Positions 2,791 to 7,824 of a DNA stretch of 40,516 nt are shown here, one piece after another. A program made the translations under genes and the position numbers. Source of the DNA: Acidimicrobiales bacterium (GTDB lineage Bacteria > Actinomycetota > Acidimicrobiia > Acidimicrobiales > MedAcidi-G1); contig JAKUSA010000001.1 of assembly GCA_022449565.1 (NCBI GenBank), forward strand, positions 1-40,516, given 5' to 3'. Within the stretch, counting starts at the first letter, position 1. Every line of letters starts with the position of its first letter. Under the pieces are notes generated by a model. That model was given only the letters and a program-made list of their open reading frames with translations, ran no database searches and was not told the DNA's origin.

Positions 2791-4059
2791 GTGAGCGTTC
2801 GTCTCACCGACGGCGACCGGGCGTACCTGGCCGGCGACCATGGTCCGTCCGCGCAGTCGGCGATGCGCGTCGTGGTGCGCCTCGCCGACACTATGGAGGC
2901 CGAGGGACTCCTCGACATCACCGGAGCCCACATCGACTCCTGCCTCTACCACGGTCCGGCCGTACTCGACTTTGCTGACTGGTTGGCCGATGGTGGCGCC
3001 CGGGTGGCCGTGCCCACCACCTTGAATGTCTCCTCCCTGGACCTCCTCCACCCCGATCTCTACCGGGGCGACCCGGACTGGGCGGTCCAGGCCCGACGAC
3101 TCATGGAGCGCTACGAGGAGATGGGGTGCCAGCCGACCTGGACGTGTGCCCCCTACCAACTGGACGTCCGCCCGTCGTTTGGTGAGCAGATCGCGTGGGC
3201 CGAGTCGAACGCCATCGTCTTCGCCAACTCAGTGCTCGGTGCGCGCACCCACCGCTACGGCGATTTCATCGACATCTGTGCAGCCATCTGCGGTCGGGCA
3301 CCGGCCGCCGGCTTGCATCTCGAGGGGAACCGGCGGGGAACGCTCCTGGTCCGCCTCGAAGGCCTAGGCGACGATCTGCTCGACCGGGATGTTCTCTACC
3401 CGGTCCTGGGTCACCTAGTGGGGCAGACCGCCGGCCACGGCGTGCCGGTCATTGACGGCCTACCTCCCTCGGTTGGTGAGGATCGTCTCAAGGCCCTCGG
3501 TGCGGCCGCGGCCTCGGCCGGTTCGGTCGGTCTCTTCCATGCGGTGGGGAGCACTCCCGAGGCCCCTACCGTCGAAGCGGCCTTCCAGGGCGTCGAACCG
3601 GAGGTGGTTGTAGTGGTGGGTACGGCGGAGCTGCGGGCCGCACGCGACGCACTGAGCACCACGGGAGACTCCCGACTCGGCACGGTGAGCCTTGGTACCC
3701 CCCACTACTCGGTGGCTGAGATCAGCCGGCTTGTGGAACTACTCGATGGCCGTTCGGTGCATCCGGATGTGTCCTTCTACGTGTCCACGGGACGAGATGT
3801 TCTGGCCGAGGTGGGACTGCGCGGGTGGGAAGAACCCCTTCGGTCGGCGGGGGTTACTTTCGTCACCGATACCTGCACCTACATCACCCCGATCCTGGCC
3901 GAGACCAGTCGACCGGCCATGACCGACTCGGGCAAATGGGCCTACTACGCGCCGGGGAACCTGGGAGTCGAGGTGGTGTTCGGCAGTGTCGAGGATTGTG
4001 TCGCCTCGGCGGTGGCCGGCGAGGTTGTGCGCGACGACGGGATCTGGGGCGATGGCTGA
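2791..4059 (+). CDS. Aconitase X (AcnX/DUF521) large subunit, hydro-lyase
   Basis: Sequence resembles AcnX catalytic proteins; GTG start; followed by an overlapping small swivel subunit. Confidence 0.8.
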   Translation: MSVRLTDGDRAYLAGDHGPSAQSAMRVVVRLADTMEAEGLLDITGAHIDSCLYHGPAVLDFADWLADGGARVAVPTTLNVSSLDLLHPDLYRGDPDWAVQARRLMERYEEMGCQPTWTCAPYQLDVRPSFGEQIAWAESNAIVFANSVLGARTHRYGDFIDICAAICGRAPAAGLHLEGNRRGTLLVRLEGLGDDLLDRDVLYPVLGHLVGQTAGHGVPVIDGLPPSVGEDRLKALGAAAASAGSVGLFHAVGSTPEAPTVEAAFQGVEPEVVVVVGTAELRAARDALSTTGDSRLGTVSLGTPHYSVAEISRLVELLDGRSVHPDVSFYVSTGRDVLAEVGLRGWEEPLRSAGVTFVTDTCTYITPILAETSRPAMTDSGKWAYYAPGNLGVEVVFGSVEDCVASAVAGEVVRDDGIWGDG

Positions 4060-4486: not shown

Positions 4487-5353
4487 GTGCGGTACCTGAG
4501 AGCAGCCGAGGTCCGCGAAGCGCTCCCCATGAACGAGTGCATCGAAGCAATGGTCCATGCGTTCGGTGGAACACGGGATGGCCAGAGTCGAACGAGGCTC
4601 GGGGGCTCGCTGGTCCTGTTGGGGCTCCTCGACGGCCAGGCCAGTGTCAAGATCGTGTCCACCGGGCTCGGCGAGGAAGCGGGGATAGTCGCGGTGTTCG
4701 ACGTCGACGGACGACCACTTGGCCTCGTCGACGGACCCACCCTCTCCGCCATTCGCACCGGAGCGGCGCCGGGGTTGGCCACCGACCTGTTAGCCGACTC
4801 GGACTGCTCGACGCTGGCCATGCTGGGGGCCGGCTCGATGGCCACCGACCAGGTCGCCGCCGTCCGGGCCGTCCGACCCATCGAACGGGTGCTGGTGTGG
4901 AGCAGGACCGAGAGGCGGGCCCAGTCGCTGGCCGACTCGGTCGGCGGGGAAGTGGTGGCCGACGCCGACGAGGCGGTCGCCGAAGCTGACATCGTGAGCA
5001 CGGCGACCCCGGCCACCGTCCCGCTGTTCGACGCCGGCTCTCTGCGGCCGGGAACCCATGTGAACGCCATCGGAGCGTTCACGCCCGATATGGCCGAAAT
5101 CCCCGGCGAGGTGGTCGAGAGGGCCTTCGTCGTCGTCGACGATCGGAAAGCGGCGGCCTCCGAGGCCGGTGACCTTCTGCGGGTGGCGCGCCGTCCCGAC
5201 GCCGACCTGGCCGAGTTGCTCGCTGGCCGGGCCGGCCCAGACGGTCAGCCGTTCACCCTGTTCAAGTCGGTAGGCATCGCGGCCCAGGACGCCGCGGCTG
5301 CCATAAGGGCCTTGGACAACGCAGAACGACTTGGTATAGGAGTACGGCTCTAA
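4487..5353 (+). CDS. Ornithine cyclodeaminase / mu-crystallin family, probable pyrroline-2-carboxylate reductase
   Basis: OCD family motifs (RTGAAPGLATDLLA, LGAGSMATDQVAAV, THVNAIGAFTPDMAEI); next to AcnX. Confidence 0.8.
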   Translation: MRYLRAAEVREALPMNECIEAMVHAFGGTRDGQSRTRLGGSLVLLGLLDGQASVKIVSTGLGEEAGIVAVFDVDGRPLGLVDGPTLSAIRTGAAPGLATDLLADSDCSTLAMLGAGSMATDQVAAVRAVRPIERVLVWSRTERRAQSLADSVGGEVVADADEAVAEADIVSTATPATVPLFDAGSLRPGTHVNAIGAFTPDMAEIPGEVVERAFVVVDDRKAAASEAGDLLRVARRPDADLAELLAGRAGPDGQPFTLFKSVGIAAQDAAAAIRALDNAERLGIGVRL

Positions 5354-5387: not shown

Positions 5388-5963
5388 TCAGTTGTCCTCG
5401 GGAATCCACGGTTCGGGCTGCAGGCCCAGCCCGTCGGCGATCCGGTTGGCATAGGCGTAGTAGGCGGTGACCTCGACGATGTCGAGGATGTCACGGTCGG
5501 TGAACCCTGCTGCCCGGAGGGGTGCCAGGTCGGCCTCGGACATCTCCGCTGGCCGGACCGTCAACTTGACAGCGAACCCGAGCATCGCCCGACGCCGGTC
5601 GTCGAGCGGGGCACTCCGCCAGTCGGCTTCGACTAGGGCCAGTAGAGAGTCGTCTCTCAGGAGTCGGCGTAGACCACGCCGATGATGAGTCACTCAATAA
5701 TGGCAGTGGTTCTCCAGGCTGACCACCAGGGCGATCAACTCCCGTTCCGCCTTCCGGAGGGATGGCGTTCCGGCCATCGCCGACGAGTACACCGACTGGT
5801 GTGCGGCCATCCCAGGTGGGTTAAGGGAGTGCACCGCCATTATGTGGTCCACCCGACCGGTTCCAGGATCGACCACCTCGCCGTGTAGTTCGCGCAAGTT
5901 GTCATCGGACGACCACTCGCTGTCTGGCACCGTTTCGATCCAGGACATGCCTGAGTCTCCCAT
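5388..5963 (-). CDS. AhpD/carboxymuconolactone decarboxylase-like (peroxidase-related) selenoprotein, CxxU motif; Sec codon UGA at 5694-5696
   Basis: ORFs 5694..5963 (-) and 5388..5693 (-) share one frame and join as …VVSLENHCHY-[UGA]-VTHHRRGLRRLL…; the UGA sits at the second Cys of the AhpD-type CxxC…H motif; bSECIS-like hairpin directly downstream. Confidence 0.85.
5665..5681 (-). promoter_or_regulatory. Putative bacterial SECIS element for the AhpD-like selenoprotein
   Basis: Minus strand CGGCGT-GGTCT-ACGCCG: perfect 6-bp stem, GGUCU loop starting 18 nt after the UGA. Confidence 0.8.
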
Positions 5964-5970
5964 GTAGCCC

Positions 5971-6693
5971 TCAGGAGGGGGTTAGCGAGAACTCGGCCAA
6001 CCGGTCGTAAAGCGGCTGGGCCTCGGCTAGGACAGCCTCGAGGTGACCGGGAAGCGACCCGGTGCCCGGCATACCGGCCTCGAACCCGGTCGACCGGTGG
6101 GCATTCTGGTACCAGTGCCCGGCCCATACTCCGTCCTCAGGTTTAGGCCCAGCCGGCCAGGACAGCATCGCCTCCTCAAACGGCAAGCCGAGTCGCTGAC
6201 AGACCTTGGCCAGCACCGCACCCGGATCGCCCAGAAGGACCGCCGAGTCCACTACTAACGGCCGATCGCCGTTTGCGAGGATGGTCTCCAACAGGTCGAC
6301 CTGCACGTCGAGTCCGATGTCGGTCACCTTCACGTCGGGCAGGTTGACGGAGTGCGATCGGAGGACCTGTCGGGGCTCGCGGATCAGGAGGATGTTGTGG
6401 CACAAACCCAGGAACGACCGGTCCAGGCCCACTAGGTGGTGACACATCTGCTTGAAGAAGACAACCGGGGTCTCGTAGTGGCCAAGGATTACCTCCTCCA
6501 CTACGCGGGTGCCGTTTGAGTCCTGGTCGGCCAGGACGGCGTTACGCCCCGGATGATTCCGGCCGCTCACCTCGAGGTAGTGGGCATAGATGGGCTCGTC
6601 GACGACCGTGGTGTCGGTCCGCTGCCGGAACGAGTACATCAGCGCTGTGGATATGTTCCGCGGGCCCGACCAGCAGTTGATCCGCAGCGTCAT
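5971..6693 (-). CDS. Sulfotransferase-like P-loop protein
   Basis: N-terminal WSGPRNISTALMYSF P-loop-like motif and LLIREPRQVLRSH motif typical of sulfotransferase-like proteins. Confidence 0.65.
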   Translation of the reverse strand: MTLRINCWSGPRNISTALMYSFRQRTDTTVVDEPIYAHYLEVSGRNHPGRNAVLADQDSNGTRVVEEVILGHYETPVVFFKQMCHHLVGLDRSFLGLCHNILLIREPRQVLRSHSVNLPDVKVTDIGLDVQVDLLETILANGDRPLVVDSAVLLGDPGAVLAKVCQRLGLPFEEAMLSWPAGPKPEDGVWAGHWYQNAHRSTGFEAGMPGTGSLPGHLEAVLAEAQPLYDRLAEFSLTPS

Positions 6694-7604
6694 CGGTTGA
6701 GATCGGCGGCCAAGGCCTTCCCGTAGAGACTCCGGAGGCGGGCCGTGACCGGACCCCCAGACCCGTTGCCGATCGTTCGCCCATCCACCGCGACCACAGG
6801 GGTCAGACCGCCGAAGGTGCCGGTGACAAATGCCTCGTCGGCCGAGTAGACGTCGGTGAGCGAGAAGGGTTGTTGACGGGTTGCCATCCCGTCTGCCTCG
6901 GCCACTTCCAGCACGACCTCCCGGGTAATGCCGTTCAGGCAGTAGTGGCCCGTGGAGGTCCAGAGTTCGGTGCTGCGGACGACAAAAAAGTTGGTGGCGT
7001 TACAGGTGGCGACCGCGCCGGTCGGGTCGAGCATCAGTGCCTCGTCGGCGCCGGCCTCAACGGCTTGGATTAGGGCGATCACTTCGTGCAGCTTTGAGTG
7101 GCAGTTGAGCCGTTGGTCAAGCGTGTCGGGTGCCGGACGACGAACGGTGGCCGTGAAGAGTGAGATTCCCGACTCGGTAACCTCCGGGCTGGCCGCCTTG
7201 TGCTCGGCGATGATCACCATGTTCGGACCGCCGACCGTGTTGGCCGGGTGCTGTGATGGCGTTCTCTTGTCGCCCCGGGTGACCATGAGACGGAGGTGCA
7301 CGTCGTCGTGCATGGCATTGCGGTCGACCGTGGCCTGCAGGGCGGCGACCACCTCGGTTCGGGCCATCCCGATGTCCAGATGGATAGCCGCGGCCCCGGC
7401 AAACAGGCGGTCCAGGTGCCGGTCTAGAAATCCGAACTGGCCCTCGTGGAGTCGGATCCCCTCCCAGACACCATCGCCGACCAGGAATCCGCTGTCGAAA
7501 ACCGAGATCCGAGCCTCCGCACGGGGGTAGAAATCCCCGTTGATATACACCTGAACCGTGTCGTTACGGGGATCGTGGACCGCGGAATGGGTGGACTTCT
7601 CCAT
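6690..7604 (-). CDS. Class IV PLP aminotransferase (branched-chain/D-amino-acid aminotransferase-like)
   Basis: VYINGDFYPRAEARISVFDSGFLVGDGVWEGIRLHEG; NGITREVVLEVA; EAFVTGTFGGLTPVVAVDGRTIG. Confidence 0.85.
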   Translation of the reverse strand: MEKSTHSAVHDPRNDTVQVYINGDFYPRAEARISVFDSGFLVGDGVWEGIRLHEGQFGFLDRHLDRLFAGAAAIHLDIGMARTEVVAALQATVDRNAMHDDVHLRLMVTRGDKRTPSQHPANTVGGPNMVIIAEHKAASPEVTESGISLFTATVRRPAPDTLDQRLNCHSKLHEVIALIQAVEAGADEALMLDPTGAVATCNATNFFVVRSTELWTSTGHYCLNGITREVVLEVAEADGMATRQQPFSLTDVYSADEAFVTGTFGGLTPVVAVDGRTIGNGSGGPVTARLRSLYGKALAADLNR

Positions 7605-7824
7605 GGCCGACGAGCGTACCGGTGGCCGGTGAGCTGACCGCTCCCGGGAGTCGCCTTGCCACCTTGTAGTGATCACCCCGGAAAGGACTATCGTTCGACT
7701 CGCAATTGCCGGAGAGGGCAGCACAGGGCACGGCGCGGGTCGTGCCCGAAGTCGCTCTCCCGCAGGCCATCGGGCCTGTTGCACCCATTCGGAGGGAGTG
7801 GCTTCACCCAGTCCGGGATCAGCG

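Follow-up and report, generated by a model that had tools for sequence, protein, structure and literature searches.

AhpD-like selenoproteins with a CxxU redox motif are already known from the sea. There were 27 such sequences in the Sargasso Sea data of 2005 (PMC1088965). The GOS survey of 2008 listed 299 and 70 sequences under AhpD-like 1 and AhpD-like 2, and for AhpD-like 1 the 299 Sec forms stood against 902 Cys homologs (PMC2398784). In a table of a 2026 review, the entry “AhpD-like protein, TIGR01926, CxxU” is given as predicted with high confidence (PMC13188914). An earlier note on the DNA studied here had mentioned reports of AhpD-like selenoproteins from marine metagenomes, and these papers bear it out. 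The gene described here shares with the known family the TIGR01926 assignment, the CxxU motif with Sec as its second redox residue, a bacterial SECIS element directly after the UGA, and a marine source. The known entries are metagenomic or tabulated, whereas the present gene belongs to a genome with full Sec machinery, Sec is clade-wide, and the neighbours are described. Judged against open-access papers, with earlier reports elsewhere being possible, what is added to this known family is the fixation of Sec across a clade of Acidimicrobiia, synonymous covariation in the SECIS element, and two conserved neighbourhoods.

The window, meaning the whole stretch of 40,516 nucleotides that was analysed, comes from a fragmented marine Acidimicrobiia MAG (1.72 Mb, 202 contigs, about 75% complete). 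Positions 5391-5963 of the reverse strand form one open frame of 191 codons, and the sole internal stop is a UGA (Table 1). With table 11 ORF calling, the gene is annotated as two ORFs. The earlier note had listed these as 5694..5963 (-) and 5388..5693 (-), contiguous in the same frame, parted by that TGA alone, with a GTG start of the second ORF immediately 3' of it, and had joined them into a product of 191 residues. All of this was found exactly so, and the read-through product contains C87-H-Y-U90-V-T-H-H94. The translated read-through segment is ...RKAERELIALVVSLENHCHYUVTHHRRGLRRLLRDD.... Met6 is the likelier start codon because homologues begin at “MAWI”, and by this alignment the true product is probably about 186 aa long. 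The rest of the window was scanned for other redox-motif UGA codons, and none besides that of CHYU was judged credible by eye. A Rfam gathering scan and ARAGORN returned no matches on the window.

Table 1. Features of the Sec-AhpD locus, in positions of the window
Feature	Position	Strand	Basis or remark
AcnX/cis-3-hydroxyproline dehydratase-like gene	2791..4059	(+)	convergent with the Sec-AhpD gene
Ornithine cyclodeaminase/mu-crystallin family gene (pyrroline-2-carboxylate reductase-like)	4487..5353	(+)	convergent neighbour
AhpD-like selenoprotein gene (TIGR01926, CxxU)	5388..5963	(-)	ATG 5961-5963; terminal stop TGA 5388-5390
Bacterial-type SECIS hairpin UCGGCGU-GGUCU-ACGCCGA (putative)	5664..5682	(-)	covariation, frozen synonymous codons, bSECIS model
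His94 (U90+4), predicted proton-relay residue	5682..5684	(-)	invariant in both alignments
In-frame UGA, predicted selenocysteine U90	5694..5696	(-)	TGA in all distinct homologues and all named loci
Cys87, predicted resolving Cys of CxxU	5703..5705	(-)	invariant in both alignments
Glu75, predicted proton-relay residue, 12 residues before C87	5739..5741	(-)	invariant in both alignments; role from AhpD family knowledge
Probable true start codon Met6 (“MSWI”)	5946-5948	(-)	aligned with “MAWI” of homologues
Sulfotransferase-domain gene (PF19798)	5971..6693	(-)	directly upstream of Sec-AhpD
Class IV aminotransferase gene (PF01063)	6690..7784	(-)	overlaps the sulfotransferase start (6690-6693)

The product matches the “peroxidase-related” family TIGR01926 over residues 31-185 with 146.9 bits (E=5e-43), which is above the curated NCBIfam cutoff of 81.8. 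Pfam CMD is matched as well. In phmmer, the alignment to the AhpD-like PDB proteins 3c1l, 2pfx, and 6k40 runs unbroken across the UGA. In Cys homologues, these three proteins included, the second catalytic Cys stands in the column of U90. Both the AhpD-like CxxU assignment proposed earlier and the alignment of homologs across the UGA on which it depended are thus supported. The AlphaFold model, made with 36 homologues, is a confident all-helical AhpD fold (pLDDT 92.9). Its top Foldseek matches are AhpD-like “peroxidase-related” proteins, the best by TM-score being 6k40 (TM 0.85, E 3e-10). The residues E75, C87, Y89, U90, H93, and H94 are invariant in the alignments. E75, CxxU, and H94 have the same spacing as Glu, CxxC, and His in 3c1l, 2pfx, and 6k40, which makes this an AhpD-type active site.

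The closest structure, 6k40, is DR1765 of Deinococcus radiodurans. It is 36% identical in the Foldseek alignment and has the spacing E-12-C-x-x-C/U-4-H, but it has Cys where the window protein has Sec. The best PDB sequence matches, with 150-158 residues aligned, are Mlr4105 of Mesorhizobium loti (3c1l) and 2pfx of Silicibacter. These differ in having CxxC, and their annotation goes no further than putative antioxidant or peroxidase-related. The AhpD_rel_CFYUT (seleno)protein family, NF041238, is AhpD-related and has CxxU like the window protein, but it is about 350 aa long. Membership in it was rejected, as the window protein scores 34.3 bits against a cutoff of 175. The AhpC-dependent AhpD of the M. 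tuberculosis type (1gu9, 1knc) was also rejected, with Foldseek E values of at least 0.2 and TMq of 0.41-0.51.

In the AhpD family, the second Cys is the nucleophile, the first is the resolving Cys, and Glu and His serve as a proton relay. The reductant of AhpD is a lipoyl protein. Because the second Cys is the nucleophile, Sec would replace the attacking thiol in the window protein. The gene very probably encodes a genuine selenoprotein, the Sec form of the TIGR01926 branch of AhpD/CMD proteins, with its UGA decoded through SelB, tRNA-Sec, and the hairpin, and with a peroxide-reducing redox enzyme as its product. The function is most likely that of a Sec-dependent thiol peroxidase or reductase of the AhpD type. 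SelB and tRNA-Sec would decode the UGA as Sec, directed by the hairpin with its GGUCU loop. The relay of E75 and H94 would help to deprotonate U90, and the U90 selenolate could then attack a hydroperoxide and be converted to a selenenic acid. C87 would resolve the oxidised U90 to give a U90-C87 selenenylsulfide. A cellular thiol donor would reduce this bond, and the genome's Sec peroxiredoxin (TPGU) could be a partner.

The physiological substrate can only be proposed, because some members of the AhpD superfamily are not peroxidases, the debrominase Bmp8 being one. It is possible, and on balance unlikely, that the window protein is a real selenoprotein whose primary role is not that of a peroxidase. 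It could be a Sec electron carrier or disulfide reductase, like an AhpD that donates to a peroxiredoxin, or it could be a CMD-type reductase of another substrate, for example a Bmp8-like dehalogenase. AhpD of M. tuberculosis gives electrons to AhpC (PMC8945050), and a carrier would also suit a genome that encodes the Sec peroxiredoxin TPGU and a Prx-like UxxC protein. Bmp8 has the same fold (TM 0.73-0.78), but its identity to the window protein is just 15-16%. The conserved neighbours of the gene are metabolic genes and not stress genes, as might be expected if the enzyme were no peroxidase. However, the closest structures are annotated as antioxidant or peroxidase-related, and DR1765 mutants are peroxide sensitive, the CxxC cysteines being required for full H2O2 resistance in Deinococcus radiodurans (PMC8945050). 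A Sec-dependent peroxidase of the AhpD type is the reading preferred here.

The neighbourhood of the Sec-AhpD gene recurs in other genomes. The sulfotransferase gene directly upstream is probably co-transcribed with it, and the aminotransferase ORF beyond, as listed, probably extends too far in the 5' direction. The order class IV aminotransferase, sulfotransferase, and AhpD(Sec), on the same strand and tightly spaced, was found at 19 of the 68 loci that extend far enough upstream. A convergent AcnX gene lies downstream of Sec-AhpD at 36 of 70 loci (for example among L048-L127). AcnX enzymes of the cis-3-hydroxyproline dehydratase type have been described (PMC5144071). The recurrent neighbourhood may represent shared synteny or a functional link. 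We know of no reason for AcnX to need a peroxidase. The clade's enzyme could depend strictly on Sec and, instead of being a generic peroxidase, serve a specific pathway of marine Acidimicrobiia, to which the adjacent AcnX locus and the frequent operon with the aminotransferase and sulfotransferase genes would tie it. Such an enzyme might reduce an organic peroxide or another oxidised intermediate there. This proposal is a doubtful one.

The active-site UGA is almost certainly translated as selenocysteine. Among the homologues examined, UGA is present in all 108 distinct sequences of at least 55% identity. Across 61 genomes, the source genome and its relatives, the 38 matches with an identity of 59% or more all have TGA at precisely this codon. 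An independent genome scan found TGA in 80/80 named loci, 78 by motif and two by direct translation, and nearly all of these loci belong to marine Acidimicrobiia or Acidimicrobiales. Of the two peptide patterns used in the scan, one demanded Cys at this codon, and any bias would thus have worked against Sec forms. In a class sample of 296 genomes, an in-frame TGA was present in all matches listed at 55% identity or above, and this was likewise so in a phylum-wide sample. A Cys codon in place of the UGA was looked for in close homologues and none was found, all having TGA, and no Cys orthologue appeared in Acidimicrobiia among the homologues examined. Two separate genes, or a pseudogene broken by a stop codon, may be suggested by the table 11 calls and by the GTG that happens to begin the second ORF, but there is scarcely any chance of this, since the identical UGA is kept in every one of the 108 homologues, both halves are conserved at the protein level, neither half holds the whole active site, and a decayed gene would not be expected to keep one identical stop together with frozen codons downstream. 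UxxU motifs were suspected in homologues with two TGA codons and were rejected, the second TGA being the terminal stop where inspected.

The predicted SECIS hairpin starts 11 nt downstream of the UGA, with the GGUCU loop at a distance of 18 nt from that codon, and has a folding energy of -10.7 kcal/mol. It satisfies every term of the bacterial SECIS model (PMC13188914). In 30 aligned sequences, 91.7% of cells are paired, and none of the 500 shuffles and none of the slid controls reaches the observed covariation score. Double changes occupy 14 cells in 102 distinct sequences, whereas shuffles gave 2.7 on average and at most 8. The stem changes that matter most are synonymous. Relatives read CGC-GGU-CUG and the window CGU-GGU-CUA, a swap of the closing pair from C-G to U-A that leaves R-G-L unchanged. 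Other stem swaps are G-C to A-U (L032) and G-C to C-G (L122). Such synonymous compensatory changes are comparative evidence for a SECIS element within a coding region. In addition, the loop codons are frozen at protein-invariant positions, with GGT in 106/108 and CTG in 107/108 sequences. An invariant Leu three codons further uses six codons, none above about 33%, and in tests of the other near-invariant Gly/Leu columns, all outside the hairpin, no codon exceeded 63%. The region is GC-rich, so that fold energy alone does not tell the hairpin apart from synonymous shuffles (mean z -0.7), and codon freezing and covariation were therefore used as evidence instead. A simple bSECIS screen was passed by 90 of the 108 real sequences, but also by 26% of synonymous shuffles. 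Among the Cys homologues tested, none has a GGUC hairpin of this kind.

The source genome possesses a complete Sec system, with tRNA-Sec, SelA, SelB, and SelD, which the earlier note had required for its reading. None of the three conditions that the earlier note had named as refuting that reading was borne out by the sequence data analysed. The tRNA-Sec scores 65.9 bits, exceeding the gathering score, and ARAGORN calls it tRNA-SeC with anticodon TCA. The selA gene adjoins selB on contig C178, and selD, on contig C147, has an in-frame UGA of its own (HGAGUGCK). Without phylogenetic correction, selA occurs in 36 of 38 genomes that have the Sec form versus 10 of 23 that do not (Fisher p=1e-5). 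Further redox genes with in-frame UGA are present in the same genome. These are a peroxiredoxin with TPGU (C160:2442-2825(-)), a Prx-like gene with UPPC (C25:971-1366(-)), a CMD protein with NGCGLU (C46:21825-22049(+)), and a CFYU gene of the NF041238 kind (C33:1777-1938(-)). The source organism is a selenoprotein-rich marine actinobacterium. That UGA has been reassigned throughout the lineage, for instance to Trp or Cys, instead of being recoded locally is barely conceivable, since there is a full Sec system with a dedicated tRNA-Sec, relatives have TAG or TAA where this gene has its terminal TGA, TGA is likewise the stop codon of the sulfotransferase ORF upstream, and the conserved hairpin would be left unexplained.

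Standard gene calling splits this enzyme into two meaningless ORFs, and Sec-AhpD is therefore probably under-annotated in marine Acidimicrobiia. Every orthologue found in the clade has Sec, whereas mixtures of Cys and Sec forms are common in marine AhpD-like proteins. The clade is thus well suited to the question of why Sec is retained. Cys forms occur from about 42% identity downwards. A second, more distant Sec group, at about 32-44% identity, has CEYU and stands out among genomes about 1 Mb in size. The hairpins of more distant Sec homologues are placed differently and mostly expose GGUC or GGUU; in the second clade, with CEYU and similar motifs (L152-L155, L156-L158, L167), the loop lies 24-25 nt after the UGA. 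L152-L155 come from these small genomes (group f42/g82), which are possibly Actinomarina-like. A tree of the sampled set contains at least three Sec/Cys changes and several very long branches.

The closest Cys-form relative found is L176 of Tritonibacter mobilis, at about 43% identity and with CEYC (CEYCVEHHYQGLRRL). It differs from the window gene in having Cys. The GGT CTG codons are kept in it, and the hairpin stem is lost. This pattern is as would be expected of a Sec-to-Cys reversion, and in a single lineage it could be due to chance. L176 and L177 both lie on Tritonibacter mobilis plasmids, and the L177 gene is also frameshifted.
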